Source of the DNA: Pseudozobellia sp. WGM2
GTDB lineage: Bacteria > Bacteroidota > Bacteroidia > Flavobacteriales > Flavobacteriaceae
NCBI RefSeq assembly: GCF_017810075.1
Contig: NZ_JADNYK010000002.1
Coordinates: 62,001-126,000 of the forward strand
Direction of reading: 5' to 3'
DNA: 64,000 nucleotides
Shown here: positions 325 to 50,695 of the stretch, piece by piece
How the letters are laid out: each line of letters starts with the position of its first letter
How positions within the stretch are numbered: position 1 is the first letter of the stretch
Made by a program: the position numbers and the translations under genes
Notes under the pieces: generated by a model
What the model saw: only the letters and a program-made list of their open reading frames with translations
Databases searched by the model: none
What the model was told of the DNA's origin: nothing

Positions 325-1464
325 TTAATCTTCCATTTCTACCCATGTGTTGCCATTTTTATGAGATTCTACAGTGGCCTCAATAAAATTCATTCCCCTT
401 ACCCCATCTTTCATCGTAGGGTATGCGCCATCGCCTTGATCTTCACCTCGAATAGCTCGTGCAACCCCCAAATATATATTGGCCATAGAGTCAAAAATAC
501 CCTCAGGGTGGCCTGCCGGAAGCTTCGTGCCATCTAAAGAGAATTCGCTATTGTAGGCATGGCCTGGTTTGTAAATTTTAGTAGGTTCGGTATCGCTCAT
601 TACATACAGAAAGTTCGGTTTTTCTTGCTCCCATCTGAATGAGGCCTTCTCTCCATAAATTGCAATGGCCAAACCATTTTCTTCACCTGTAGCTACTTGA
701 CTGCCGCGAATAACCCCTTTAACATGGTCACCCATACGAATTAACACTGTACCATCAACATCCATTTGATTGTCTTCATACAGATAATTGAAATCACATA
801 AAAGCGATTTTACCTCAAGCCCAGTAGTGTACTCGACCATATTGAAAGCGTGCACCCCGATATCACCCATACAAGAACTTATACCTGCCTTTTTGGGGTC
901 TAACCTCCAAACACTTGATCTCTTTTCTTTATCATGAATAATTGGGTTGATCCAACCTTGGTAATATCTTGCATCGATTTTATGTATTTTGCCCAAAACC
1001 CCTTCTTTGATCATTTCACGCATTTGGCGTACCATCGGGTAACCCGTATACGTGTGACTAAGAGCAAACACGGTTCCAGCCTTTTTATGGGTCTCTTCCA
1101 ATATTTTAGCCTCTTCCAAGGTAGTGGTCATCGGCTTTTCACAGATTACGTGAAAACCGTTCTCCAATAACTTTTTGGCCATCGGAAAGTGAAGAAAATT
1201 AGGCGTAAGAATAGAGCACACTTGGATTCGCTCATCTTCCGGAAGTTTCATTTCTTCCTCGACCATTGTATCGAAATCGGTGTATATTCTATTCGTAGGC
1301 ACATCGATTTCCTCTGCAAATTTTATATTTTCTTTATAATCTGGGTTGAATACCGCACCTACGATTTCATAGTTGTCATTAATGTGTGAAGCCACTCGGT
1401 GAAGCACACCTATAAGTGAATCGCCTCCACCTCCTAAAATTCCTAATCTAATTTTCTTTGGCAT
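325..1464 (-). CDS. Gfo/Idh/MocA family oxidoreductase
   Basis: This is a 379-residue NAD(P)-dependent sugar or polyol dehydrogenase of the Gfo/Idh/MocA family. The N-terminal Rossmann fold starts at once (IRLGILGGGGDSLIG), and the family CEKPM motif (EKP lysine) lies near residue 109. The GDIGVHAFNMVEY segment carries the catalytic-type histidine of the C-terminal alpha/beta domain. There is no signal peptide, so the enzyme is cytoplasmic, unlike the exported paralogue at 28936. It sits downstream of DinB and TIM-barrel genes on the same strand. That context suggests reduction or oxidation of a keto-sugar or inositol-type intermediate. The substrate cannot be read from sequence. Confidence 0.9.
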   Translation of the reverse strand: MPKKIRLGILGGGGDSLIGVLHRVASHINDNYEIVGAVFNPDYKENIKFAEEIDVPTNRIYTDFDTMVEEEMKLPEDERIQVCSILTPNFLHFPMAKKLLENGFHVICEKPMTTTLEEAKILEETHKKAGTVFALSHTYTGYPMVRQMREMIKEGVLGKIHKIDARYYQGWINPIIHDKEKRSSVWRLDPKKAGISSCMGDIGVHAFNMVEYTTGLEVKSLLCDFNYLYEDNQMDVDGTVLIRMGDHVKGVIRGSQVATGEENGLAIAIYGEKASFRWEQEKPNFLYVMSDTEPTKIYKPGHAYNSEFSLDGTKLPAGHPEGIFDSMANIYLGVARAIRGEDQGDGAYPTMKDGVRGMNFIEATVESHKNGNTWVEMED

Positions 1465-1856
1465 TTGTAAATCCTATTTAATGAGTGAAAAGTTGTTTTT
1501 GATTTAAGGGTAACAATTTAATAAAATAGCTACGATTTATGGGCTATTTTTTCGTTTTTGAACAAAATGAAATATAAAACTAATACTATAAGTACAAAAG
1601 CCGAACAATAAGCTCGATAGAATAGTTTTTCCTATCTGCGTTGCCTCGGGCAATATATAATCGTCGCCGATTTTTCAATCACTACAAACCAACTGGTGTA
1701 GCACTACAGTTTAATAATCGGGTCTATTGCAAAGGGCGCTTCTAAAGCGCCCTGATATAATTATATTATTTAAGCTTATGTCGAACCAGAAGTTCAACAC
1801 ATAAATTTAAATTTGAGAGGTTTTATTTTAAAAGCTACCCTGTTGCTTTAAACCCA
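1465..1856. other. Intergenic region, 392 bp
   Basis: No convincing gene is seen. The only clear structure is a GC-rich hairpin at 1733-1753, listed separately. The rest is AT-rich and includes the presumed promoter of the Gfo/Idh gene, but I could not find a clean TAnnTTTG box on the minus strand. Confidence 0.6.
1733..1753 (-). terminator. Hairpin downstream of DinB gene
   Basis: AGGGCGCTT and AAGCGCCCT form a 9-bp stem with a 3-base loop, about 105 bases past the DinB stop codon. It separates the DinB/TIM-barrel pair from the Gfo/Idh gene. There is no strong T-run on the minus side, so it could instead be a processing or stability element. Confidence 0.5.
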
Positions 1857-2300
1857 CTATCTCTTATAAAATACATAATCAGTCACCAAGGGCTCAATGT
1901 CATTCATTCTAAAATTCGTGGCAATCTGACCTCTATGATGGGTAGAGTGGTTAATGATATGAAAGAGCATATCTTGAACAGTATTCGTGTACAGCCGACC
2001 TTTCGAGTTTTCGTAATCTAAACGTCTCTCAAAGTCATCTATGTTCGAGACAATATGAAAAGAACTTCGCTGATTCTCATAATGTATATCGTGCCAAGCA
2101 TTCAACTCATGAATTTGAAAAACCTCATATTCTGGTTGATCTTCAAGTAATCTTGCATTCCAAATATGATGCGAATTGAGCAAATGACTAAATAGCCAAA
2201 TACTTTTTTCGGGCACAGCATCGAGCGTTTCACAATACTCAATAATCTTCTTGTTACAAAAGAAATTGTAATCGAACAGTTGGTTGAAAAATGATTTCAC
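1857..2300 (-). CDS. DinB family protein
   Basis: This 147-residue protein has the four-helix DinB/YfiT-type fold. Family members often carry a three-histidine metal site and several are thiol-dependent S-transferases. Visible signatures are a histidine pair at 44-45 (LLNSHHIWNAR) and a second cluster at about 114-122 (HIINHSTHHRGQI), matching the metal-ligand pattern. Length is normal. It follows the exported TIM-barrel gene by about 33 bases on the same strand and is probably co-transcribed. The family is confident; no substrate can be assigned. Confidence 0.85.
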   Translation of the reverse strand: MKSFFNQLFDYNFFCNKKIIEYCETLDAVPEKSIWLFSHLLNSHHIWNARLLEDQPEYEVFQIHELNAWHDIHYENQRSSFHIVSNIDDFERRLDYENSKGRLYTNTVQDMLFHIINHSTHHRGQIATNFRMNDIEPLVTDYVFYKR

Positions 2301-2333
2301 TAGAGATTTTGGTCTTTGGTTTTGGTATAAATA

Positions 2334-3329
2334 TTAGTCCAGTTTCTTAGCCGCCTCGATCAAGAGCTCTTTGGTTGCGATTATACCGGCCTCTTCATCT
2401 AATGCGCTACCTTCATATTCTACCCCCACGTAGCCGGTATAACCGTGATCCTTGACGATTTCAAGCATTTTCACATAATCGATTTCTGTTTCATTGCCTT
2501 CTGCATCAAAATCATGTGATTTAGCACTTACCGCCTTGGCATAAGGCATCAGTTCTTCTACTCCTTTATAAATATCGTACATATCTTCACAGTCCCAAGT
2601 ACCTTCTTTTCTCTTGATACAGAAATTACCGAAATCAGGAAGTGTACCACAATTGTCCATATTAACGGCCTTCATTACTTCGGCATGAAGAGCTCCATTA
2701 GATGATAGTCCGCCGTGGTTTTCTACAAGTACGTTAATCCCCTTGGTCTTGGCATAGGTACTTAACTTGGTAAGACCATCGATAGAATTCTTTTTCCATT
2801 CTTCGGGATTATCGCTTCCGTTCAGGTTCACACGAATGGCATGGCATCCCATCGCCTGAGCAGCATCGACCCACTTTTTATGTTTTTCTACAGTTTCATT
2901 TCTCTCGTTCTCATCACTAACCGCAAGATTCCCCTGTCGATCGATCATGATCAGAACGTTCTGCATACCGTGCTTTTCAGCTTCCGCATTAGACTTTTCA
3001 ACAAAAGCGGCCATAGCTTCCGGTGAATAGTCATCGTTTTCTAAATCAGCAGGGTAAAGCTGACTCACATACTCGAGACCGGTAAAGCCCCAATTTTTCG
3101 CTTTTTCAGCGAATGTGTAAGGATCTACACCGTCTTCACGAATCATTTTATGAATTGACCACTGAGCTAAAGAGAGTTTGAAAAAAGGATCGGCAGCTTC
3201 CATTTCCGTCTCTGAACTTTCTGCGCTTTCACCTTCTTTCTTTTTAGTTTCCTTACAAGCGTAAACACCCATTATCGATAAGGCAACACCTGCTTTTGAA
3301 CTATTTTGAATAAACCTTCTTCTTTTCAT
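2334..3329 (-). CDS. Exported sugar phosphate isomerase/epimerase-like TIM barrel protein
   Basis: This 331-residue protein belongs to the xylose isomerase-like TIM-barrel family (AP endonuclease 2 fold). The N terminus MKRRRFIQ is a twin-arginine-type leader. It runs into a short hydrophobic stretch and Cys25 (GVYAC), so it may be Tat-exported and lipidated. Acidic and histidine metal ligands of the family are visible in VLVENHGG, GTLPDFGNF and YVGVEYEG. Such exported isomerases commonly sit beside GMC and Gfo/Idh enzymes in Bacteroidota. It is transcribed divergently from the GMC gene at 3470 across a 140-base region with an inverted repeat. The family is sure; sugar epimerase or isomerase activity is inferred. 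Confidence 0.85.
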   Translation of the reverse strand: MKRRRFIQNSSKAGVALSIMGVYACKETKKKEGESAESSETEMEAADPFFKLSLAQWSIHKMIREDGVDPYTFAEKAKNWGFTGLEYVSQLYPADLENDDYSPEAMAAFVEKSNAEAEKHGMQNVLIMIDRQGNLAVSDENERNETVEKHKKWVDAAQAMGCHAIRVNLNGSDNPEEWKKNSIDGLTKLSTYAKTKGINVLVENHGGLSSNGALHAEVMKAVNMDNCGTLPDFGNFCIKRKEGTWDCEDMYDIYKGVEELMPYAKAVSAKSHDFDAEGNETEIDYVKMLEIVKDHGYTGYVGVEYEGSALDEEAGIIATKELLIEAAKKLD

Positions 3330-3371
3330 TTGTTTTGATTAGTTAATTGTCTTTAAAGGATTTGGAGTCTC

Positions 3372-3391
3372 ATCGCATGCGAATATGCGAT
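3372..3391. promoter_or_regulatory. Inverted repeat, candidate operator
   Basis: ATCGCAT and ATGCGAT flank a 6-base spacer in the short divergent region between the TIM-barrel gene and the GMC operon. A shared operator controlling both directions is plausible, but no regulator gene lies next to it. The assignment rests on symmetry and position only. Confidence 0.3.
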
Positions 3392-3469
3392 ACTATTAAG
3401 GTATATGGCGAATAAATGTAGAAAATTAATTTAATATTTAATAAATTTATGGACTAAACAATCTTGTAA

Positions 3470-5179
3470 ATGAGCAAATTTTATTACAACGAAGAGCAAG
3501 AATCTTATGATGCTATCGTGGTCGGTACTGGAATTAGTGGCGGATGGGCCGCAAAGGAACTTTGTGAGAGCGGACTGAAAACCTTGGTATTGGAACGCGG
3601 AAGAATGGTAAAACATATCGATGATTACGAAACCGCGAATAAAGACCCGTGGGATTTTCCCAATGCAGGAGCCGCCACAAAAGAAATTATAGAAAAACAG
3701 CCCAAACAAAATAGAACAGGCTATACTACAAGCCAAGCTAGTCACATGTGGTTTGTAAACGATTTAGAACATCCGTACAATGAAACCAAACGTTTCGACT
3801 GGATGCGAGGTTACCATGTCGGCGGCCGTTCATTGCAATGGGGCCGACAAAGTTATCGGTGGAGCGATATAGACTTCGGTGCGAATGCCCGAGAAGGCAT
3901 CTCTATCGATTGGCCGGTTCGATATAAAGATATTGCACCTTGGTACGCCAAGGTTGAAAACTATATCGGCGTTAGTGGTGAGGCTTTAAATTTACCTCAA
4001 CTACCCGACAGTGACTTCTTGCCCCCTATGGAGCTCAACTGCCTTGAGCAACATTTTAGGGAAAAGGTTTCAGATAGTTTTGGAGGTCGTGTCGTAACTC
4101 CGGGTAGAACTGCTCATATTACAGGTACCAAAGAGTTTGATGGCAGAACTAAATGTCAATTTAGAAATAGATGTATCAGAGGGTGTCCTTTTGGGGCTTA
4201 CTTCAGCAGTCTATCTTCTACCTTGCCCGCTGCTGAAGCGACAGGTAATATGACTTTGCGACCAGATTCGATCGTTCACGAAATTATGTACGATGCCGAT
4301 ACAAAAAAGGCCGTTGGTGTAAAAGTGATCGACAGGGTCACCAAAGAACATTATGAATTCAAGGCCAAGGTCATTTTCCTTTGTGCCTCAGCTATAGCTT
4401 CGACGTCAATATTGATGCAATCGAAATCGGACCGTTTCCCAAACGGAATGGGTAACGACTCAGATCAGTTAGGCCGTAACATTATGGATCACCACTTAGG
4501 TGTAGGTGCACGTGGTAAATTCGATGGCTTTGAAGATAAATATTACAAAGGAAGAAAGCCAAGTGGTTTTTACATTCCAAGATTTAGAAACCTCGGAGGA
4601 GATTCTAATCGGGAGTACAAGCGTGGTTTCGGTTACCAAGGTGGGGCCTCTAGAGGCAACTGGGAAGAAACCGTTGCCGAACTTTCGTACGGTGCCGATC
4701 TTAAAGACGCGATTCTTAAACCAGGGGGCTGGTCGTTTGGTATGACCGGTTTTGGTGAAGTGTTGCCTTACGAAGAAAATAGGTTTACCCTTGATTATGA
4801 AAAATTAGACCAATGGGGTCTTCCTACCGCCACCTTTGATGCAGAGTTCAAAGAGAACGAATGGAAGATGCGTGAAGACATGAAAGAGTCTGCGGTTGAA
4901 ATGCTCGAAGCTGCCGGCATGAGAGATGTTACCCCTTATGATAACCCTGGTGCTCTTGGTCTGGGCATTCACGAAATGGGCACCGCCCGCATGGGTAGAA
5001 ACAGAAGAACATCTGTTCTAAACGCTAACAATCAGCTGCACGATGTACCTAACGTGTACGTTACAGACGGGTCTTTTATGACTTCGGCAAGTTGTGTGAA
5101 CCCATCATTGACCTATATGGCATTTACCGCTAGAGCAGCAGATCATGCGGTAAAAGAACTCAAAAAAGGAAATATATAA
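3470..5179 (+). CDS. GMC family oxidoreductase (FAD sugar/alcohol dehydrogenase large subunit)
   Basis: This 569-residue flavoenzyme has an N-terminal FAD-binding Rossmann motif (VVGTGISGGWAA) and the family active-site pair: His501 in HEMGTARMG and Asn544 in SCVNPSLTYM. Cys229, Cys235 and Cys239 form a C-x5-C-x3-C pattern. It resembles the iron-sulfur motif of membrane-bound gluconate, fructose and glucose dehydrogenases that work with a small subunit 3. The next gene, overlapping by one base in TAATG, is that subunit. There is no N-terminal signal, so export probably depends on the partner's RR leader. The likely role is oxidation of a sugar or glycoside hydroxyl in the periplasm. The electron acceptor subunit is not in this window. 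Confidence 0.93.
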   Translation: MSKFYYNEEQESYDAIVVGTGISGGWAAKELCESGLKTLVLERGRMVKHIDDYETANKDPWDFPNAGAATKEIIEKQPKQNRTGYTTSQASHMWFVNDLEHPYNETKRFDWMRGYHVGGRSLQWGRQSYRWSDIDFGANAREGISIDWPVRYKDIAPWYAKVENYIGVSGEALNLPQLPDSDFLPPMELNCLEQHFREKVSDSFGGRVVTPGRTAHITGTKEFDGRTKCQFRNRCIRGCPFGAYFSSLSSTLPAAEATGNMTLRPDSIVHEIMYDADTKKAVGVKVIDRVTKEHYEFKAKVIFLCASAIASTSILMQSKSDRFPNGMGNDSDQLGRNIMDHHLGVGARGKFDGFEDKYYKGRKPSGFYIPRFRNLGGDSNREYKRGFGYQGGASRGNWEETVAELSYGADLKDAILKPGGWSFGMTGFGEVLPYEENRFTLDYEKLDQWGLPTATFDAEFKENEWKMREDMKESAVEMLEAAGMRDVTPYDNPGALGLGIHEMGTARMGRNRRTSVLNANNQLHDVPNVYVTDGSFMTSASCVNPSLTYMAFTARAADHAVKELKKGNI

Positions 5180-5826
5180 TGGATAGAAGAAAAGCACTCA
5201 AAAATATGGGGCTGGCGCTCGGTTATACCGTTGCCACCCCCACTTTGATCAGTATCGTTCAAAGTTGTAAAGAGGAAACCGTTTTTGAATGGACCCCTGA
5301 TTTTTTCAGCAAAGATGAGGGAGCAGTTCTAACTAAGTTGGTAGATATTATTCTTCCTAAAACAGATACCCCTTCGGCTTCCGAGACGCAAGTACATCTT
5401 TTTATTGACCGTTTTGCGGATCAGGTGATGAAAGAAGACCAGCAAAATTTCGTGAAAATGTCAATGGGCAGATTTATGGAAAAGGCACTAAAGGATGCCG
5501 GAAAAGAAAAAGCCGGAGAACTGACCATTGAAGAGCTTGAACCAGTTTTAGCGGAAGCCTTAAAAATTTCAAAAGATAATGAAGCTCAAAATTTTGAGGC
5601 CATAAAGCAATACCACGAAGCGATTGCAGAAGGTAAAGAACCTCTTTTAGATGATGGTATTTCACGTTTTGCATTTGCGAATAACCTTAGAGGGTTGACC
5701 ATTTTGGGTTACAAGAGTTCAGAATATGTCGGCGAAGAAGTGTTGGCCTATTTACCTATACCTGGTGAATATATTGCATGTGCAGACCCACAAGAATTGA
5801 CGGGCGGCAAGGCATGGTCGCTTTAA
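5179..5826 (+). CDS. Gluconate 2-dehydrogenase subunit 3 family protein
   Basis: This is a 215-residue small subunit of a GMC-type dehydrogenase. The leader MDRRKALKNMGLALGY is Tat-like (RR) and is followed by VQSC, a possible lipobox. The family block LTKLVDIILPKTDTPSA lies soon after. Homologous small subunits chaperone export of the large flavoprotein and help anchor it. The start codon overlaps the GMC stop codon, so the two are translationally coupled and very likely form one complex. A strong terminator follows at 5851. No cytochrome c partner is encoded nearby. Confidence 0.9.
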   Translation: MDRRKALKNMGLALGYTVATPTLISIVQSCKEETVFEWTPDFFSKDEGAVLTKLVDIILPKTDTPSASETQVHLFIDRFADQVMKEDQQNFVKMSMGRFMEKALKDAGKEKAGELTIEELEPVLAEALKISKDNEAQNFEAIKQYHEAIAEGKEPLLDDGISRFAFANNLRGLTILGYKSSEYVGEEVLAYLPIPGEYIACADPQELTGGKAWSL

Positions 5827-5850
5827 AAAATTTTTCAACAATATATTAAA

Positions 5851-5893
5851 GAGTTGAGGGCTGTCGTTTAAAATGCCCTCAACTCTTTTTTTT
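5851..5893 (+). terminator. Rho-independent terminator of the GMC operon
   Basis: GAGTTGAGGGC (5851-5861) pairs with GCCCTCAACTC (5875-5885) and is followed directly by eight T residues. This is a textbook intrinsic terminator, placed 25 bases after the subunit 3 stop codon. Confidence 0.92.
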
Positions 5894-5930
5894 AACTTCA
5901 ACTTTAAACTATAACCAAACTTACATCAAG

Positions 5931-6848
5931 ATGAAAAGAAGAAATTTTATACAGAAATCAGCTCTTACCGGTGGAGCCCTATCGCTAGGCAGCTCGTTTG
6001 CCTTTGCCAACGGAACAGCTTCAAGTTCAGCACCTCATAAATTCAACTTGAAGTATGCCCCACATTTAGGCATGTTCAAAGAATTGGCTGGTGAAGATCC
6101 TATTGACCAAATCAATTTTATGGCCGACCAAGGTTTTACCGCCTTTGAGGATAATAGTATGATGAAGAGGGATGTTGCTATGCAAAACAAAATGGGCGAA
6201 ACTTTGGCCAAACGAGGTATGACCATGGGTGTTTTTGTCGTAGATAAAGGGGGTAATATGGCCAATACCCTAGCAGCGGGCAAGCAAGAATATATTGATA
6301 TTTTTTTAGATGGCTGCAAACGAGCCGTTGACGTTGCTAAGCGTTGTAACGCCAAATGGATGACCGTTGTACCTGGTGGATATGAAAGAAGATTACCTAT
6401 CGGTGTTCAAGATGCAAACGTTATCGAGGCCCTAAAACGAGGAGCTGAAATTTTAGAGCCCCACGGACTAGTTATGGTTTTAGAACCGTTATCTGACTCA
6501 CCCGATCTATATTTACAGAATTCAGATCAGACCTATATGATTTGTAAGGGTGTTGATAGCCCGTCATGTAAAATTTTGTACGATGTATATCACTTGCAAA
6601 AGACAGAAGGTCATTTGATTCATAATATGGGACTCACTTGGGATGAGATCGCCTATATTCAAATTGGTGACAACCCGGGACGTAAAGAACCGACAACAGG
6701 CGAAATCAATTACAAAAATGTCTTCAAATGGATTCACGAAAAAGGATTCGATGGAGTTTTAGGTATGGAACACGGTAATTCAAAAGAGGGTAAAGCCGGA
6801 GAGCAAGCTGTTATTGATGCCTACAAACAAGAAGATAGTTTTTTATAG
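5931..6848 (+). CDS. Exported hydroxypyruvate isomerase-like TIM barrel protein
   Basis: This 305-residue TIM-barrel protein of the xylose isomerase-like superfamily is closest in look to hydroxypyruvate isomerase family members. The leader MKRRNFIQKSALTGGALSLG is twin-arginine-like, with a cleavable end near SSFAFANG, so a periplasmic location is likely. Metal-ligand segments are visible: VLEPLSDSPD, ILYDVYHLQKTEG and LGMEHGNSKEG. The gene lies after the GMC operon terminator, so it is probably a separate transcript. Its content is functionally coherent with the neighbouring enzymes. The true substrate is likely a keto- or aldose sugar rather than hydroxypyruvate; this is inference from context. 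Confidence 0.85.
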   Translation: MKRRNFIQKSALTGGALSLGSSFAFANGTASSSAPHKFNLKYAPHLGMFKELAGEDPIDQINFMADQGFTAFEDNSMMKRDVAMQNKMGETLAKRGMTMGVFVVDKGGNMANTLAAGKQEYIDIFLDGCKRAVDVAKRCNAKWMTVVPGGYERRLPIGVQDANVIEALKRGAEILEPHGLVMVLEPLSDSPDLYLQNSDQTYMICKGVDSPSCKILYDVYHLQKTEGHLIHNMGLTWDEIAYIQIGDNPGRKEPTTGEINYKNVFKWIHEKGFDGVLGMEHGNSKEGKAGEQAVIDAYKQEDSFL

Positions 6849-28935: not shown

Positions 28936-30360
28936 ATGCAAAGACGAAAATTTATTAAAAACGCCGCTGCAGCATCTACCGCATTTTCAATCGTACCCAG
29001 TTATGTTATGGGCAAAACTCATGTACCCCCTAGTGACACCTTGTACATGGGAGCTTTTGGTGTCGGGGGAAGAGGTTCTAGCGTTATGAACGGTCTGAAC
29101 GAAACCGGCAAGGTCAAATTCGTAACCTTATGTGATGTAGATGACCGTAGAGCGGCAGATTCTTACAAGAAATATCCGAAGGCAAAGCAATACAAAGACT
29201 TTAGAAAAGTCTATAATAAGCATATCAAAGATATCGACGCTATTATGGTGGCCACGCCTGACCATATGCATGCTTCTATCGCCTTACCTTTTATGAAGGC
29301 CAAAAAACATGCTTATGTAGAAAAGCCATTAACACACAATATCAATGAAGCACGTCTAATGACCTCGGTAGCCCGACAAAACGGCATTGTTACCCAAATG
29401 GGAAACCAAGGTGCGTCAAGTGATGGTAGTCGCCAGGCCAAAGAATGGATTCAATCAGGTATTATCGGCAAGGTTTATAAGGTTGATTGCTGGACGAACA
29501 GACCCGTATGGCCACAAGGCGTGCCCTTACCTACAGAAAAACAACCCGTACCTAAGGGGTTGGATTGGGACTTATGGCTCGGTGTCGCCAAAATGCGCGA
29601 TTATAACGCCGCATACCTACCTTTCAAATGGAGGGGCTTTTGGGATTTTGGAACCGGTGCTTTAGGTGATATGGGTTGCCATATTATGGAAACTCCGTTC
29701 GGTGTTCTTGATTTAGGCTACCCTACCGAGGCCGAGGCCAGTTGTACGACCAATTGGATAGGCGATTTCGTCGAAGCCGATTATAGTGAATCTTGCCCCG
29801 CTTCATCGATTGTTCGCTTAAAATTCAACACCGAAGAACACGGTGACATAGCTTTAAACTGGTATGATGGCGGCTTAATGCCCGATTTACCTGATGAACT
29901 TGCCGATGGAGAAGCCATTGGCGATAGTGGTGGGGGATCTGTATTCTACGGAACCAAAGGTATTTTAGTAGCGGATACCTATTCTAGAAATGCTAGATTG
30001 CTACCGAGCAAGAATATGGATATGTTCAAAGCTCCAGCTCCATATTTGAAAAGAATTGATGGTGATGTAGGCGGACATCAAGCGAATTTTGTTGAAGGCT
30101 GTTTAAACGGTGTAGAAACCTCATCTGATTTCAAACGTTCAGGGCCTCTTACGGAAGCCGTTCTTATGGGCAATTTGGCTATAAAAGCCTTTCAATATAA
30201 AAAGTTGAAAGAAGGAAAAAAATTGGGAGATTGGGATCCTTTTGAATATCCGGGACGAAGAAAAATTCTTTGGGATGGTGAAAATATGAAAGTCACCAAT
30301 TGGGACATGGCCAATGAATGGGTCAAAGGAAGTTACCGAAAGGGCTGGGAGCTATCTTAA
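28936..30360 (+). CDS. Exported Gfo/Idh/MocA family oxidoreductase
   Basis: This 474-residue NAD(P)-binding oxidoreductase of the long, exported Gfo/Idh type is frequent in Bacteroidota. The leader MQRRKFIKNAAAASTAFS is twin-arginine-like. The Rossmann motif GAFGVGGRGS, CEKP-equivalent YVEKPLTH and GDMGCHIMETPF follow. A cofactor-carrying enzyme exported by Tat is plausible. It probably oxidises or reduces a sugar or keto-sugar. It is far from the 3-7 kb cluster but of the same functional kind. A 12-bp terminator stem follows. Confidence 0.9.
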   Translation: MQRRKFIKNAAAASTAFSIVPSYVMGKTHVPPSDTLYMGAFGVGGRGSSVMNGLNETGKVKFVTLCDVDDRRAADSYKKYPKAKQYKDFRKVYNKHIKDIDAIMVATPDHMHASIALPFMKAKKHAYVEKPLTHNINEARLMTSVARQNGIVTQMGNQGASSDGSRQAKEWIQSGIIGKVYKVDCWTNRPVWPQGVPLPTEKQPVPKGLDWDLWLGVAKMRDYNAAYLPFKWRGFWDFGTGALGDMGCHIMETPFGVLDLGYPTEAEASCTTNWIGDFVEADYSESCPASSIVRLKFNTEEHGDIALNWYDGGLMPDLPDELADGEAIGDSGGGSVFYGTKGILVADTYSRNARLLPSKNMDMFKAPAPYLKRIDGDVGGHQANFVEGCLNGVETSSDFKRSGPLTEAVLMGNLAIKAFQYKKLKEGKKLGDWDPFEYPGRRKILWDGENMKVTNWDMANEWVKGSYRKGWELS

Positions 30361-37744: not shown

Positions 37745-38758
37745 ATGGAAGGAAATGCCGTGATACTGGTAATAAGTTCTTTGGGTATCGCCCAAGCATT
37801 ATTTCTTTGCTTTTATCTTTTCACTCTTAGAAAAGGAAACCGAAGGGCCAATATTTTCTTGGCTCTTTTACTTCTAGGCTTGACTATTCGTATCGGAAAA
37901 TCGATTCTCAATGTATATTTAGATTTATCGCCTTGGCAACGTAATCTTGGTATCTCAGGGGTGTTGCTCGCCGGGCCTTGCCTATGGTTTTATGGGAAAG
38001 CACTATTGCAAAAACCAAAAACATTCAATACTATTACCTACATTCACCTTCTCCCTTTTCTTCTCTTTGCCACCTTGTGTGCTTTTGTTCCCAATGACGG
38101 TAGTAATTGGGCGTATTTTATTTACTTGGGTGTATTTTTTCATTTGAGTATCTACATCTTCCTTTCAATACAGGTGCTCTCAAAAACTAGAGATCAAATT
38201 CACCACCGCATCTCAAAATGGTACCGAAATCTAATTTTTGGCACAAGTCTCATCTGGTTATTCTATATCGGGAATATCACGGGTATAATTCCCCTTTACA
38301 TCGGCGGAGCAATTTTCTTTTCTTTTTTAGTATATACTTTTTCATTTCTTCTATTACAACGACACGATTTTAGCCTCGAAAAATATAGTACCTCTAATAT
38401 TGACGTAGCCACATCTAAAAAACTGTTTATTACCTTAAAACAATTATTCAAAGTAGAAGAACTATATCTCGATTCTACCATTTCTTTATCAAAAGTGGCC
38501 AAAAGAATTGAATGTTCTCCTCGTGATGTTTCTAGAGCTATAAATGAAAACCAAGGGAAAAACTTCTCAGAATTTGTTAATGCCTACCGAATTCAAAAGG
38601 CAAAGGCCCTGTTAGCAGATACCGCTTATCTTAAAGAGAAAATAGCTACGATTGCCTATGATTGTGGTTTCGGTAATGTTACCTCGTTCAATCTCGCTTT
38701 TAAGGCAGAAACCCAGCTAACCCCTTCACAATATAGAAATCAATTCAAACCTGTTTAG
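37745..38758 (+). CDS. Membrane-linked AraC family transcriptional regulator
   Basis: This 337-residue protein has about seven hydrophobic helices in its first 215 residues (LGIAQALFLCFYLF through ILFFSFLVYTFSFLLL-type segments). A cytoplasmic AraC-type double HTH follows at about 230-337: ISLSKVAKRIECSPRDVSRAINENQGKNF and KIATIAYDCGFGNVTSFNLAFKAETQLTPSQYR. Such 7TM-AraC proteins are common regulators in Bacteroidota and probably sense membrane-soluble or periplasmic signals. The putative target is unknown; the following sugar dehydrogenase/hydrolase genes are candidates. Confidence 0.9.
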   Translation: MEGNAVILVISSLGIAQALFLCFYLFTLRKGNRRANIFLALLLLGLTIRIGKSILNVYLDLSPWQRNLGISGVLLAGPCLWFYGKALLQKPKTFNTITYIHLLPFLLFATLCAFVPNDGSNWAYFIYLGVFFHLSIYIFLSIQVLSKTRDQIHHRISKWYRNLIFGTSLIWLFYIGNITGIIPLYIGGAIFFSFLVYTFSFLLLQRHDFSLEKYSTSNIDVATSKKLFITLKQLFKVEELYLDSTISLSKVAKRIECSPRDVSRAINENQGKNFSEFVNAYRIQKAKALLADTAYLKEKIATIAYDCGFGNVTSFNLAFKAETQLTPSQYRNQFKPV

Positions 38759-38844: not shown

Positions 38845-40068
38845 ATGAAAATCTTAATCTTCTTGGTAATTGCGTCTATCGTCGGATGCACTCCCACAAA
38901 ACCGAAAAGTGAAGAAAACCGCGCTTCCATAACTCTTCCTCAAAAAGAAACCATAATAGATAGCTTGGCCCGCCCTTGGAGTATGGCCTTTATTTCTGAA
39001 AACGAAGTATTGCTTTCTGAAAAGGATGGTGACCTTTTACGAATAAACCTCAGCACCAAAACGAAGCACATTATCAAAGGTTTTCCTAACGATAGGTTAG
39101 ATAGTCTTCTGTACCGTAAGTCCGATTATAGATTGGGCACATTCCCGAGCCGTATAACCGACAATAAAAAATACACTTTCAACGCAGGTATTTTTGAAAT
39201 ACTTCTAGATCCCAAATTTGAAAAAAACCATCATGTATATATTTCTTATGTCAGCAAAGCCCCACAAGGTTCGACGACCAAAGTTATACGTGCCGAACTT
39301 CAAAACGATTCGCTACAAAATATCAAGCCGTTACTATTAGCTCTACCCTATTCACATGGTCTTTATCATTACGGGGGCGGAATGACTTTCGGTAGCGATG
39401 GTAAACTATACATCACTGTTGGAGAAAGACTCTTTAACGAAGATAATCAACCCGAAACGCCTATTGCCCAAGATAAGACGGACAAACGAGGAAAAATTTA
39501 TCGTATAAATTCAGATGGTACGATACCTGATGATAACCCTGACTTTGGTCCTGAAGCTGTCGAAGGACTTTATGCAATCGGCATACGCGCCGCACAAGGC
39601 ATAAAAATGGAACCCAAAACAGGTAAGATTTGGTTTAGCGAACATGGCACTCACCAAGGTGACGAAATCAATATCTTACGCCCCGGAGCCAACTATGGTT
39701 GGCCCATAATAACAACGGGTAAATACAGGGGAGTTAATTTTTTTCCTAAAAAAAACCTAGATGATAATTATACTGATCCGGCCTGGTCTTGGCCTCAAAC
39801 CGTTGCCCCTACCGGACTTACATTTTACACGGGCAACGAGTTTCCCGATTGGAAAGGCAATCTTATAGTACCAGGACTTTCGCGTGGAAGTCTCTGGAGA
39901 ATTCGCTTAGATGGAGAGACCGTAAAAAGCATGGAAGAGCTTTTCATCGACGAACGTCACCGCTCCCGCAAAGCGATAATGAGTCCTGAGGGTAAACTAT
40001 ATCTATTAACCGAAAATCTTGAACACCCAAAAAACGGCAAAATCATTAGGATAAAACCACAATTATAA
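38845..40068 (+). CDS. PQQ-dependent sugar dehydrogenase-like lipoprotein
   Basis: This 407-residue lipoprotein (lipobox IASIVGC, Cys15) has the glucose/sorbosone dehydrogenase six-bladed propeller fold. Typical pieces are LARPWSMAFISENEVLLSEKDGDLLRI, YHYGGGMTFGSDGKLYITVGER, GKIWFSEHGTHQGDEIN and GLSRGSLWRIRL. PQQ-binding residues would lie in the GxGxH-like and R/K segments, but cofactor use cannot be confirmed. It may oxidise aldoses on the periplasmic face. A small lipid-exported protein follows 20 bases downstream. Confidence 0.88.
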   Translation: MKILIFLVIASIVGCTPTKPKSEENRASITLPQKETIIDSLARPWSMAFISENEVLLSEKDGDLLRINLSTKTKHIIKGFPNDRLDSLLYRKSDYRLGTFPSRITDNKKYTFNAGIFEILLDPKFEKNHHVYISYVSKAPQGSTTKVIRAELQNDSLQNIKPLLLALPYSHGLYHYGGGMTFGSDGKLYITVGERLFNEDNQPETPIAQDKTDKRGKIYRINSDGTIPDDNPDFGPEAVEGLYAIGIRAAQGIKMEPKTGKIWFSEHGTHQGDEINILRPGANYGWPIITTGKYRGVNFFPKKNLDDNYTDPAWSWPQTVAPTGLTFYTGNEFPDWKGNLIVPGLSRGSLWRIRLDGETVKSMEELFIDERHRSRKAIMSPEGKLYLLTENLEHPKNGKIIRIKPQL

Positions 40069-40088
40069 ATTAGTAAATATCAAGTCTT

Positions 40089-40514
40089 ATGAAAATCATC
40101 TATCTTACTTTAGTATCATTATTCTTAGTTGGTGCCTGTCATGCACAAAATGAGGAAGATGATATTCGAAAAAATCTTCAAATGTATATCGATGGCACCA
40201 CATATAGTGAACCAAATAAAATTATTGCTCCGTTCTATGAAGACGCCCGTATGTTTCTGTCAAAAAAGGGGCAGCCTATATATATGCTTTCAGCAAAAGA
40301 ATACGCCCAGCTATTCGAGAAAAGAGAAAAAGGAAAGTTCAATGGGCGTAAAGGTTCGATATTGTCAATTGATATTGCCAATGATATAGCTACGGCCAAG
40401 GTAGAAATCTTGATTAAAGATCAAAACCTACGATTCATAGACCTGTTTCTTTTAAAAAAGCTAGAAGGCAATTGGAAAATAATCAGCAAGGCAGCTACCC
40501 TAATGCCTAATTAA
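40089..40514 (+). CDS. NTF2-like / lumazine-binding-like secreted protein
   Basis: This 141-residue protein has a lipoprotein-like signal (LFLVGAC at Cys17) and a small alpha+beta domain. The blocks IRKNLQMYIDGTTYSEPNKI, FYEDARMFLSKKGQPI, DIANDIATAKVEIL and FLLKKLEGNWKIISK are typical of NTF2-like DUF4440/lumazine-binding-like proteins. It is probably exported with the upstream dehydrogenase, given the 20-base gap. The role, perhaps ligand binding, is unproven. Confidence 0.8.
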   Translation: MKIIYLTLVSLFLVGACHAQNEEDDIRKNLQMYIDGTTYSEPNKIIAPFYEDARMFLSKKGQPIYMLSAKEYAQLFEKREKGKFNGRKGSILSIDIANDIATAKVEILIKDQNLRFIDLFLLKKLEGNWKIISKAATLMPN

Positions 40515-46821: not shown

Positions 46822-49623
46822 TTATCGACCCAAACAATAGAAGAGCCCGCCTAAGAGGTGCTGCCTAAATTCAGGCTCGTCATAAGACGAATTAGAATGC
46901 CCTCCGCCCGTATAAAATGATTTTCCACCATCGAATTCATGATACCATGAAAAAGGATGGTTTTCTCCATTAGTACCACCATTATAACTGCTTTCATCAA
47001 GCATGATTAATGGAATAATACCTGAATAGATATCTTTAAAATTATACCATTCTTCACTTCGATTCCATATGCTTGGTAAATGGGTAGTAGATTTGTGATT
47101 TTGGTCGACCACATTCAAAGTGGCTTCTTGAATACTTGGGTGCCCGTTGAAGTAGGCACCGACCAATTCTCCGTACCAAGGCCAATCGTATTCGGTATCA
47201 GTAGCGGCATGCACTCCCATAAAACTCCCTCCTGATTGAATATAATTTTCAAAGGCTGCTTGCTGGGTAATGTTTAGTACATCTCCTGTTGTATTTAAAA
47301 AGACCACTACTTTATATTGAGAAAGGTTAGTTATGTTGAAATCTCCACTATTTTCCGTCTGTACCACTTCAAAATCATTGGTTTGACCCAAAGCTTGAAA
47401 AGTAGCCACGCCTTTTTCAATAGAGCCGTGCCTAAATGCTGCTGTTTTGGTAAATACCAAAATTTTATCTGATGTTTCTTGAGGTTCTTCTTTTAGGGTC
47501 AAGGCCGATACGCCCAAACTTTGGCCAGACTCATTATTTTCTCCATCAAATGCCGAAACTTTGTACCGATAGGTAGTTTGAGGAGTCAATCCAGTGACCT
47601 GATATGCTGTAGATGTCGTGGTCAAAATGCTTTCACCATCTTGATAGACAATATAGCCTGAGACCCCAAAATCGTCAGAAGCCGGCTCCCAAACCAAACT
47701 TACGGTAGTTTGGGTAGTTTCTTGCACACTTAAATTTTGAGGTACAGAAGGCGGCGTGTCATCTACCACAACTTCTTTACGTGTAGAAGCAATCAACGCT
47801 TCACTAAGTTGAGATTCATTCTCTGCAGCGTCAAAAGCCGAAACCGAAAAAGAATATTCAGTGCTACTTGCGAGGCCATCAACCCCGTAATTAACTTCTT
47901 TGACGGAAGCTATAAAACTTCCGTTCTGATAGATTTTATAACCGGTAACGCCTACACTATCCGTTGAAGGGCTCCAGCTTAAATCGATTGAAGTTTCAGT
48001 AACCTCTCCCGCTACCAAATCTCGGGGCACGCTAGGGGCGGTTGTGTCGATTGCGGGTTTGTCTTCTTCCTTTGTTGATACGGTCAGTGGATTACTTCTC
48101 TCCGATTCATTGTTATTTTCATCTATCGTAGAAACTGAAAAACTATATTCGGAGTTCGGTGACAACCCTGAAACCTCAATTCGAGATTCAGAAACTGTTG
48201 CGAAAAATGTTCCATCTTGATAGACCTTAAATTCAATAGAACTTATCGAGTCTTGGTCTATTTCCCAACTTAGCTCTAGAGAGGTAGGTGAGATATCAGA
48301 AGTAGACAAATTCTTGGGAACCGTAAGAGGTGCGGGGCGTTCTTCATTAGCATCCGTAGTTACTACTAAGGCTTCGCTAAGAATTGACTCTTGGTCTTTC
48401 TCATCTACCGTGGTCACGGCAAAGTGATACTCTGTGTTGGCAATCAATTCAGATACTTGAAATTTCGTTTCGGTAGTATTGCCAACAAGTACTTCATCTT
48501 GATAAATTCGATATTCATCAACCTTCATGCTATCCGAAGGGCTTTCCCACTCAAAGTGCACTATGTCGCTTGTGACCTCGATAATTTTTAAATTTATGGG
48601 AGGGCCGGGCGATAACGAATCGTTGTCCATCTCATCTTCCTTTTCAGTCGTAACCGTTAAAATATCGGAAGGTTTAGATTCATTTTCAGCTTCGTCCCAA
48701 GCGGTAACACTAAAATTATATTCAGTATTAGGCTCCAAATCTTGAATTTGAAAAGCGTTTTCTTCAGTGGTGGTCAGCAGCAGCGTATCATTATAAATGC
48801 CATAGGCTACAACCTCTAAACTATCTGCCGAAGGCTGCCACGATAAATCTATCGTATGAGTCGTAATCTCATCAAATTTTAATCCCGTAGGCGCAGGAGG
48901 TGCAATCGTATCTTTCTGTTCTTCCGCCAAGGTCAAAACATCTATAACATTACTTGGTTTTGTTTCCTTTCCTTCCGCATCAACAGCCACAACCCAAAAA
49001 GAGTAGGCTTTTTCAGGAGTTAAATTTTCAACGGAATAATTGTTCTTGACCAAAGAAACCGAGTGGGTGCTGTCTTGGTAGATTCGATACTCTTCGATTG
49101 CCGAGGTACTTGATTGCGATTTCCAGCTCAGATAAACAGATGTAGAAGAAACACTATCCAGTTCTAGTTTCGGTCTTAACAATATCAAACTATAAGGGTT
49201 TAAACTATCAATGTCAATAGTGTCCGCCGCCTTAGTTACTATCTCGACCGCTTCGCTGAAATCAGAGATGTTACCGGCATCATCGGTAGCACGAACTGAA
49301 AACATGTATGACGTCTCAGGCTCTAATTTATTAGCTAGATAAGTAGTAACCGTATCACGGAAAACTTCGGTGCTATCGCGGAAAACTACGTAATCTTTTA
49401 CCTTGATATTGTCTTTTGCCCTTTGCCATGATACGACTGCCGAAGAATCGGTAATATCTGTGGCTATCAATTTTCTTGGAGGCTCAGGGGCAACCCTATC
49501 GGGCTTGACTACCGACTCAGGAACTACCTCTTCGTCTTTTTCGCATGCGGCAAAAAAAAGTATGGACAATAAAATAAGTGTTAGGGAAAGCAGGCCAAAG
49601 AAAGGTCTTTCTTTCATTCTCAA
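46822..49623 (-). CDS. Lipoprotein with seven FN3 domains and a C-terminal ThuA-like domain
   Basis: This 933-residue lipoprotein has a signal ending FFAAC (Cys27). Seven fibronectin type III domains follow (about residues 45-710, each about 85-95 residues). Each has an SW or W-near-start core and a Y-x-F/Y-x-V motif near its end, for example SLELSWEIDQDSISS and YSFSVSTIDENNNES. The C-terminal part (about 716-933) matches a ThuA-like domain: SDKILVFTKTAAFRHGS, GGSFMGVHAATDTEYDW and FYTGGGHSNSSY. ThuA proteins are linked to trehalose/3-keto-sugar metabolism. FN3 domains would hold the catalytic unit away from the membrane at the surface or periplasm. Function is inferred. Confidence 0.85.
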   Translation of the reverse strand: MRMKERPFFGLLSLTLILLSILFFAACEKDEEVVPESVVKPDRVAPEPPRKLIATDITDSSAVVSWQRAKDNIKVKDYVVFRDSTEVFRDTVTTYLANKLEPETSYMFSVRATDDAGNISDFSEAVEIVTKAADTIDIDSLNPYSLILLRPKLELDSVSSTSVYLSWKSQSSTSAIEEYRIYQDSTHSVSLVKNNYSVENLTPEKAYSFWVVAVDAEGKETKPSNVIDVLTLAEEQKDTIAPPAPTGLKFDEITTHTIDLSWQPSADSLEVVAYGIYNDTLLLTTTEENAFQIQDLEPNTEYNFSVTAWDEAENESKPSDILTVTTEKEDEMDNDSLSPGPPINLKIIEVTSDIVHFEWESPSDSMKVDEYRIYQDEVLVGNTTETKFQVSELIANTEYHFAVTTVDEKDQESILSEALVVTTDANEERPAPLTVPKNLSTSDISPTSLELSWEIDQDSISSIEFKVYQDGTFFATVSESRIEVSGLSPNSEYSFSVSTIDENNNESERSNPLTVSTKEEDKPAIDTTAPSVPRDLVAGEVTETSIDLSWSPSTDSVGVTGYKIYQNGSFIASVKEVNYGVDGLASSTEYSFSVSAFDAAENESQLSEALIASTRKEVVVDDTPPSVPQNLSVQETTQTTVSLVWEPASDDFGVSGYIVYQDGESILTTTSTAYQVTGLTPQTTYRYKVSAFDGENNESGQSLGVSALTLKEEPQETSDKILVFTKTAAFRHGSIEKGVATFQALGQTNDFEVVQTENSGDFNITNLSQYKVVVFLNTTGDVLNITQQAAFENYIQSGGSFMGVHAATDTEYDWPWYGELVGAYFNGHPSIQEATLNVVDQNHKSTTHLPSIWNRSEEWYNFKDIYSGIIPLIMLDESSYNGGTNGENHPFSWYHEFDGGKSFYTGGGHSNSSYDEPEFRQHLLGGLFYCLGR

Positions 49624-49804
49624 GTGGAGGGTTTAGGGGATAAATACCAAGCTATAGTTTCTCGGAATACGAAGGTCTGAATTTCATCGATAAAAATGAA
49701 CCTTATAGCGAATTTTTTTGACGAAAAAATAATTTGGCGCTGAAATAATTGAAAATCAGCAACTAATCATCAAAAAAAGTGAACATATAACTTTTTTTCA
49801 AGAT

Positions 49805-50695
49805 TTAGCCATTCGCCAGCGCCATTAAATATTTCTTGGGTGTAGTACCATACTTCTTTTTAAAAGCCGAAATAAAATGGCTCGCCGTACTATACCCCAC
49901 TTTTAGTCCCACTTCATTAACATTATGCTGACCAGTTTCCAGCATTTTTCGGGCATACTCCATTTTATAATCAAAAAGAAAACTAAAGACCGAATCACCG
50001 TAAATCTGTTTAAAGCCCTCTTTTAGTTTTTTGAGCGACAGCCCTATTTCTTCCGATAGTTCGCTAAGTGTTGGTGGTTCTGCCATTCTCGAAATAATAA
50101 TTTCTTTTGCTTTGCGGATACGTCTTACATTATCTTCGTCCACAAGAAAAGGGCACTGTTCTATATCGGCATCGTCACTTTTATTAAAATAAAGAGCGAT
50201 AAGTTCGTACACTTTGCCCTTAATGTATAGTTCTTTTATAGATGGATGCAGGTTGTAATTCATCACCTGACTTAAGATCACTGCAATAGCAGGGCTCACA
50301 CCCTCTTGAGAATAGTATTTCTTGTCTTTATTATCTGCACTAAGAAAAGGGATATAATCGGCTTCTTTTGAGAAAAGCGAATGGAATTTACGTATGGTCA
50401 TCACCACTGAAACCAACCATGAATTGGGATTAAGTTCTAGGTTCATCGGTAAATCCATTTGAGTATTATACAGCAAAAGTGAATTCTCTTCCGACACGTC
50501 TAGAGCATAACGCCCATCATTGAAAATAAATTTGGCACTGCCCTTTAGACAAAAATGAAATTGAATGAACGAACTATTGATATCTCGTACTACCTTCTGT
50601 ATCTGCGCCCCATCGTTTTGAATCTTCAGCACAAAAAAACCATCTTCGATTAAAACTTCTTGAAACGAACCTTCAGCGACATTTTTATCAGCCAT
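49805..50695 (-). CDS. AraC family regulator (PchR-like), divergent from hemA
   Basis: This 296-residue regulator has an N-terminal sensory/dimerisation domain (about 1-190) with FCLKGSAKFIFNDG. Its C-terminal AraC double HTH is LSELSEEIGLSLKKLKEGFKQIYG and NEVGLKVGYSTASHFISAFKKKYGTTP. The HTH resembles the PchR iron/siderophore group. It is divergent from the hem run, with a 204-base gap holding the hemA promoter. It is a strong candidate regulator of heme synthesis; the effector is unknown. Confidence 0.9.
   Translation of the reverse strand: MADKNVAEGSFQEVLIEDGFFVLKIQNDGAQIQKVVRDINSSFIQFHFCLKGSAKFIFNDGRYALDVSEENSLLLYNTQMDLPMNLELNPNSWLVSVVMTIRKFHSLFSKEADYIPFLSADNKDKKYYSQEGVSPAIAVILSQVMNYNLHPSIKELYIKGKVYELIALYFNKSDDADIEQCPFLVDEDNVRRIRKAKEIIISRMAEPPTLSELSEEIGLSLKKLKEGFKQIYGDSVFSFLFDYKMEYARKMLETGQHNVNEVGLKVGYSTASHFISAFKKKYGTTPKKYLMALANG

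Follow-up and report, generated by a model that had tools for sequence, protein, structure and literature searches.

A rare lipoprotein of Pseudozobellia sp. WGM2 carrying a C-terminal ThuA domain on seven FN3 domains, with probable display on the cell surface

ThuA domains are widespread, and most of them have no assigned role. A described protein of comparable layout is the levan surface glycan-binding protein BT1761, which is reported, in the passages of PMC7618045 that deal with it, to consist of a lipidated Ig domain, a second Ig domain and, at the C-terminus, a domain that binds levan and resembles the ThuA-like structure 1T0B, with W297 and W359 important for levan binding. A secreted ThuA-GSDH-PKD-CBM6-PKD protein of Cellulosimicrobium, purified in a C-terminally truncated form, showed beta-xylosidase/beta-glucosidase activity that its description does not assign to a domain (PMC4562250). 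The ThuA of rhizobia and Agrobacterium shares the ThuA name and is set beside our protein by description; its gene belongs, together with thuB, to the ABC-transporter operon thuEFGKAB (PMC6683767), unlike the locus described below. As to 3-keto sugars, BT2157, a DUF1080 protein, is described as a 3-ketotrehalose hydrolase, and the same source proposes a periplasmic hydrolysis of 3'-ketolactose (PMC9007349).

We analysed a stretch of 64,000 nucleotides (the window) from the genome of Pseudozobellia sp. WGM2, in which one gene encodes a predicted lipoprotein with seven FN3 domains followed by a ThuA domain. The gene, its parts and its upstream region are as follows.

46822..49617, minus strand: FN3-ThuA lipoprotein gene, 931 aa plus stop (orthologue 93% identical in the same genus)
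49546..49617, minus strand: predicted signal peptide, residues 1-24, with FFAA before Cys25 (from the sequence; residues 1-42 identical in two genomes of the genus)
49528..49545, minus strand: Cys25 and surface-export-like motif CEKDEE, of the form C-X-K-(D/E)2-X (sequence compared with PMC5080379)
49228..49491, minus strand: FN3 domain 1, aa 43-130 (PF00041; boundaries by eye, as for all seven)
48934..49197, minus strand: FN3 domain 2, aa 141-228 (PF00041)
48643..48906, minus strand: FN3 domain 3, aa 238-325 (PF00041)
48355..48615, minus strand: FN3 domain 4, aa 335-421 (PF00041)
48067..48330, minus strand: FN3 domain 5, aa 430-517 (PF00041)
47776..48042, minus strand: FN3 domain 6, aa 526-614 (PF00041)
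47494..47763, minus strand: FN3 domain 7, aa 619-708 (PF00041)
46825..47472, minus strand: ThuA domain, aa 716-931 (PF06283; conservation in 114 rows, model, solved structures)
49652..49712, minus strand: upstream block, TATAAGG..TTTTTATCGATGAAATTC..GAGAAACTATAG (read by eye)
49805..50695, minus strand: AraC-type regulator directly upstream (PF12833)

There are two candidate start codons, an ATG at 49617 (MKERP...) and, two codons earlier, the TTG at 49623 at which the initial annotation began the protein. The ATG is the better start, because MKERP is common to the homologues of genomes G393, G011 and G001 and of two Zobellia species. The upstream block is recognisable in six of seven aligned upstream regions; a similar block precedes the genes of G393, G011, G001 and both Zobellia, that of Z. 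barbeyronii looks partly palindromic by eye, and in G026 the block is not clearly present. It is possibly a promoter or operator.

The composition given in the initial annotation, seven FN3 domains and a ThuA domain on a lipoprotein, was confirmed. Each of the seven FN3 stretches passed the PF00041 model separately (E 2.3e-76 over the whole protein), and seven of the ten FN3 matches in the WGM2 genome fall in this one gene. An NCBIfam match to CbhB was discarded, as it was far under the cut-off and sat on the FN3 repeats. The model of the full-length protein was weak (pLDDT 67.5, from a three-row alignment), with a strand pattern corresponding to seven beta-sandwich units. Seven FN3 domains in a row would span some 20-25 nm.

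The explanation that we favour, with moderate confidence, is that the gene encodes an outer-membrane lipoprotein which holds an intact ThuA domain outside the cell on a seven-FN3 stalk and processes a glycoside before its uptake, a 3-keto-glycoside being the most likely substrate. The lipobox cysteine, Cys25, would anchor the protein in the outer membrane, and the CEKDEE signal, judging from the published motif, would bring it to the cell surface. The stalk would serve as a spacer with ThuA at its tip, as its looser selection and its copy number of 1, 7 or 8 suggest. The ThuA domain, if catalytically intact as it appears, would then process a glycoside outside the cell, before uptake, and domain fusions and gene co-occurrence point to a C3-oxidised (3-keto) glycoside as the most likely substrate. 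The directly seen features that support this explanation are the domains, the lipobox, the conserved residues, the purifying selection and the grouping of the FN3-bearing proteins, whose locus is occupied in other genomes by orthologues that lack the stalk.

The ThuA domain is complete: the PF06283 match (E 3.5e-71; 240.2 bits against a curated cut-off of 33.4) covers residues 718-927 and profile positions 1-208 of 209. Its predicted structure, computed from 36 sequences, had a pLDDT of 93.9 and, when compared with solved ThuA-like proteins, aligned best with 4jqs (Z 24.4), 4e5v (Z 22.9) and 1t0b (Z 21.3), in agreement with the ThuA fold initially proposed for the C-terminus. This search used the ThuA-domain model only, because the full-length model was too weak in its ThuA part. 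By sequence, too, the closest solved relative was 4jqs (E 1.8e-12; E 2.2e-26 with a profile), which is a ThuA-like protein from Bacteroides uniformis.

The conserved residues of the family, which include H730, H803, D807, E809, H826, E856, Y858, E875, H887, W891 and H907, are retained. At each of the 21 conserved positions examined across 114 rows, its residue is that of the majority, these positions having been picked from alignments that include the protein itself; eight of them (H730, H803, H826, E856, Y858, W891, T903 and H907) are kept in two divergent WGM2 paralogues as well. None of the invariant or near-invariant columns of 36 sequences holds a cysteine, which is evidence against the mechanism of a class I glutamine amidotransferase; our ThuA domain contains a single cysteine, C928, the fourth residue from the C-terminus. 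In another genome of the genus, the protein is 93% identical, and the comparison gave Nei-Gojobori dN/dS values of 0.057 for ThuA, 0.268 for the FN3 stalk and between 0.18 and 0.68 for its individual FN3 domains. Purifying selection is thus strongest on ThuA, the most constrained part of the protein apart from the short N-terminus.

The main rival is binding without catalysis, because the ThuA-like fold of BT1761 is a glycan binder on an Ig stalk. The ThuA-fold tip would in that case bind a polysaccharide, with the FN3 stalk giving reach. The precedent is close in plan: BT1761 (PDB 8aa2 chain G) is likewise a surface lipoprotein with a beta-sandwich stalk and a C-terminal ThuA-like fold, although it is shorter, has two Ig-like domains rather than seven FN3 domains, and is a binding protein belonging to a SusCD utilisome. 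Residues 179-438 of this chain aligned with our ThuA model at Z 15.0 over 194 residues with 11% identity. However, glutamine amidotransferases and GH42 enzymes aligned comparably (Z 14-17), so the likeness to BT1761 is one of fold only, and the C-terminal domain of BT1761 was not matched by our ThuA profile (A2) at E<=10. The Pseudozobellia domain, moreover, retains the conserved polar residues of its family. Nor does the surrounding DNA resemble a utilisation locus of the SusCD kind: the window contains no other ORF of SusC length (the longest other encodes an 831-aa ribonucleotide reductase), and no SusC or SusD match appeared among the 39 of 50 listed window ORFs that were scanned with Pfam. 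We consider a pure binder rather unlikely.

The favoured reading, a surface enzyme, depends on export beyond the outer membrane. The signal peptide ends in a lipobox, FFAA^C, and the mature N-terminus would be CEKDEE. In Capnocytophaga, the surface-export signal is reported to be minimally K-(D/E)2 or Q-A-(D/E)2 and optimally C-X-K-(D/E)2-X, while SusD homologues of Flavobacterium johnsoniae have the consensus SDDFE (PMC5080379). CEKDEE fits the optimal form, with the reservation that this form was established in Capnocytophaga. It occurs in 2 of 22 heuristic lipoprotein candidates (this protein included) from the window and eight further WGM2 loci (L055-L062). In relatives the motif is imperfect: CQKDGE in G011, CEKDKSD in G001 and Z. 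amurskyensis, CDKDKSD in Z. barbeyronii and CGGSSGDD in G026. The match to the published signal makes outward display of the lipoprotein likely, and the initial suggestion of an outward-facing protein is to this extent upheld on the N-terminal sequence.

Alternatively, the lipoprotein might sit in the outer membrane facing the periplasm, its post-cysteine motif not being an export signal, with ThuA working alongside oxidoreductases of the GMC/Gluconate_2-dh3 type. Single-domain orthologues at the same locus start with segments that look by eye like signal peptides, so the ancestral protein was probably exported at least to the periplasm, and it is in the periplasm that the hydrolysis of 3'-ketolactose is proposed to take place. 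Against this stand the fit of CEKDEE to the optimal surface signal and the seven FN3 domains, whose purpose in so thin a periplasm would be hard to see. We regard the periplasmic arrangement as unlikely.

Surface location leaves the substrate to be considered. A 3-keto-sugar enzyme role for the ThuA domain is plausible, on the basis of fusions and co-occurrence. ThuA was fused to PF06439 (3keto-disac_hyd, DUF1080) in all three scanned proteins of fusion length; a fourth protein of that length is found at locus L086. Among 100 Flavobacteriaceae genomes, at least two PF06439 matches were present in 28 of the 28 with a close ThuA against 21 of the other 72 (Fisher p 8e-12, kinship ignored), and in 15 of 15 genomes with a hem-locus ThuA against 34 of 85 (kinship likewise ignored). 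Some of these DUF1080 matches are probably the ThuA-PF06439 fusions themselves (three shown, one by length). Gluconate_2-dh3 occurred in 23 of 28 close-ThuA genomes against 22 of 72 (permutation within genome-size bins, p 0.002) and in 13 of 15 hem-locus genomes against 32 of 85 (p 0.012), both again ignoring kinship. Genome size and relatedness both confound co-occurrence of this sort, and in a regression that included DUF1080, run without standard errors, the Gluconate_2-dh3 term was small and differed in sign between the two ThuA sets. The WGM2 genome itself has 8 ThuA places; for DUF1080 it has 16, of which one is under the cut-off.

Other ThuA proteins of this genome have different partners. 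The ThuA-GSDH-PKD-cytochrome c fusion (e.g., at L055) also has an exported ThuA domain, but it is N-terminal, is joined to different domains and lacks FN3. At L058 (7502-10591, minus strand), ThuA shares one protein with DUF7133 and with HEAT-like and cupredoxin domains. In the window, a GSDH gene and the small ORF that follows it (38845-40514) each have a lipobox-like start; a second AraC gene (37745-38758) is their neighbour.

A link between the lipoprotein and a GMC/Gfo-Idh cluster, which had been read as a hint of its function, was not supported. These genes lie at 325-6848 of the window, some 40-46 kb away; the GMC gene ends at 5179, and even the nearest Gfo/Idh gene (28936-30360) ends at 30360. 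A common operon is rejected on this distance and on the synteny, which is with hem genes. We found no dehydrogenase or oxidase of a 3-keto route in the conserved neighbourhood of the lipoprotein gene. The genes at 325-6848, taken with G000:C22:59565-60182 (in L062), look by their content like a 3-keto-glycoside cluster: one finds Gfo/Idh, GMC and Gluconate_2-dh3 genes, two genes for TIM-barrel proteins (AP_endonuc_2) and, some 2 kb ahead of the window, a DUF1080 gene.

The domain-architecture search showed that the combination of FN3 and ThuA is not common. In the sample of 100 family genomes (WGM2, G000, included), a close ThuA (E<=1e-40) was present in 28 genomes at 40 places, namely the window gene plus 27 and 12 loci. 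The 27 come from 29 ThuA ORFs in 32 loci, two of which are distant WGM2 paralogues (L057, L058). FN3 accompanied ThuA in 4 of the 40 genes, those of G000, G011 and G001 (seven domains each) and of G026 (one). Among the best 80 of 592 confirmed relatives it did so in two, from Zobellia amurskyensis (seven) and Z. barbeyronii (eight). Across 296 genomes of the phylum, a very close match was found in 25 (27 places), with FN3 in G000 and G001 only, both strands considered; the phylum loci are short and end before the C-terminal ends of long fusions, which bounds this count. FN3 was counted throughout with an HMM built on the protein's own seven domains, which a very divergent FN3 may escape. In G346 the match started at query residue 60 and so seemed to extend into FN3; this proved to be an alignment artefact, the ORF having no FN3.

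The Zobellia proteins (L087, L088) are 53% and 51% identical to ours over the whole protein and, like those of G393, G011 and G001, share the common N-terminus, the FN3 stalk with ThuA, and the adjoining AraC and hemA. FN3-ThuA is a rare, clade-limited architecture assembled from known parts. The initial remark that no published architecture of this length was known stands insofar as we found no description of an FN3-ThuA protein among the listed titles and abstract openings from the open-licence literature; it has to be tempered for the general plan, for which BT1761, with its shorter Ig-Ig-ThuA-like arrangement, is a precedent. An assay of a close ThuA homologue was likewise not found in the literature examined, which had little to offer on the enzymology of ThuA.

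The gene lies in a conserved neighbourhood, with AraC, hemA, hemC and hemE on one side and DUF1460, MscS and hemH on the other. This setting might point to a function connected with heme or iron, since the position beside AraC and the hem genes is conserved in many genera, and in several genomes the gap between AraC and ThuA, counted to the first possible start codon, is 2 to 10 bases, which suggests that the two are co-transcribed there. In the window, however, the gap is 187 bases, and AraC is found in 95 of the 100 family genomes (E<=1e-50) against 28 for close ThuA. A dedicated regulator of ThuA is thereby ruled out, and AraC, being near-universal in the family, is part of the hem locus. 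In 20 of the best 30 AraC loci, moreover, AraC has no ThuA neighbour, and 14 of the 20 have hemH or DUF1460 directly next instead. ThuA thus looks like an accessory gene within a core hem locus. A heme or iron role is accordingly very improbable. The AraC regulator beside hemA is itself, by presence, a conserved hem-locus regulator. In G001, a 1174-aa TraB/PrgY/GumN protein with two matched stretches (L068, 4792-8316, plus strand) lies between MscS and DUF1460.

ThuA genes without FN3 occupy the same position. They adjoin AraC and hemA in 30 of 37 selected loci (a few genomes counted twice), in genera that include Arenibacter, Maribacter, Muricauda, Eudoraea, Galbibacter and Sinomicrobium. The single-domain exported proteins of Arenibacter, Maribacter, Muricauda, Galbibacter and others resemble the Pseudozobellia protein in their AraC-hemA position and are 52-63% identical in the ThuA domain, but no FN3 stalk was found in them. 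In a tree of 115 rows (matches at E 1e-40 or stronger; the labels 'GSDHfus', >900 aa, and 'DUF1080fus', 500-560 aa, denote length only), the FN3-bearing proteins clustered (7 rows, 97/77, below the tree's own star level), and the six long-stalk proteins did so at 100/99. The single-FN3 ThuA of G026 joined this FN3-bearing cluster, and the unstalked ThuA of the same genome fell elsewhere. All seven FN3 domains had their best matches in G011 in identical order, whereas against G001 and Z. amurskyensis only some matched best in order (1, 2 and 6 in both). Most simply, the FN3 stalk was added once to a hem-locus ThuA. G026 has two hem-locus ThuA genes (L069, 8267-10776, minus strand), of which one carries a single FN3 domain and the other none; this is possibly an intermediate state. 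That the protein is an adhesin with a vestigial ThuA tip, as a variable FN3 number (1, 7 or 8) and a faster-evolving stalk might suggest, is hardly credible given the constraint on ThuA.

If the favoured explanation of a surface enzyme is correct, the Zobellia group may have moved one step of 3-keto-glycoside processing to the outside of the cell, where a surface ThuA on an FN3 arm would cleave or otherwise process oxidised algal glycosides, an extracellular start to the oxidation and cleavage of glycans that would lie outside any SusCD utilisome; we offer this wider proposal tentatively and think it doubtful as yet. The occurrence of a stalked ThuA and of unstalked orthologues at the same locus provides a natural comparison for the role and the place of action of ThuA. 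Moreover, since the ThuA-like fold is both an enzyme candidate and, in BT1761, a surface glycan binder, the Pseudozobellia protein is well suited to deciding between the two roles.
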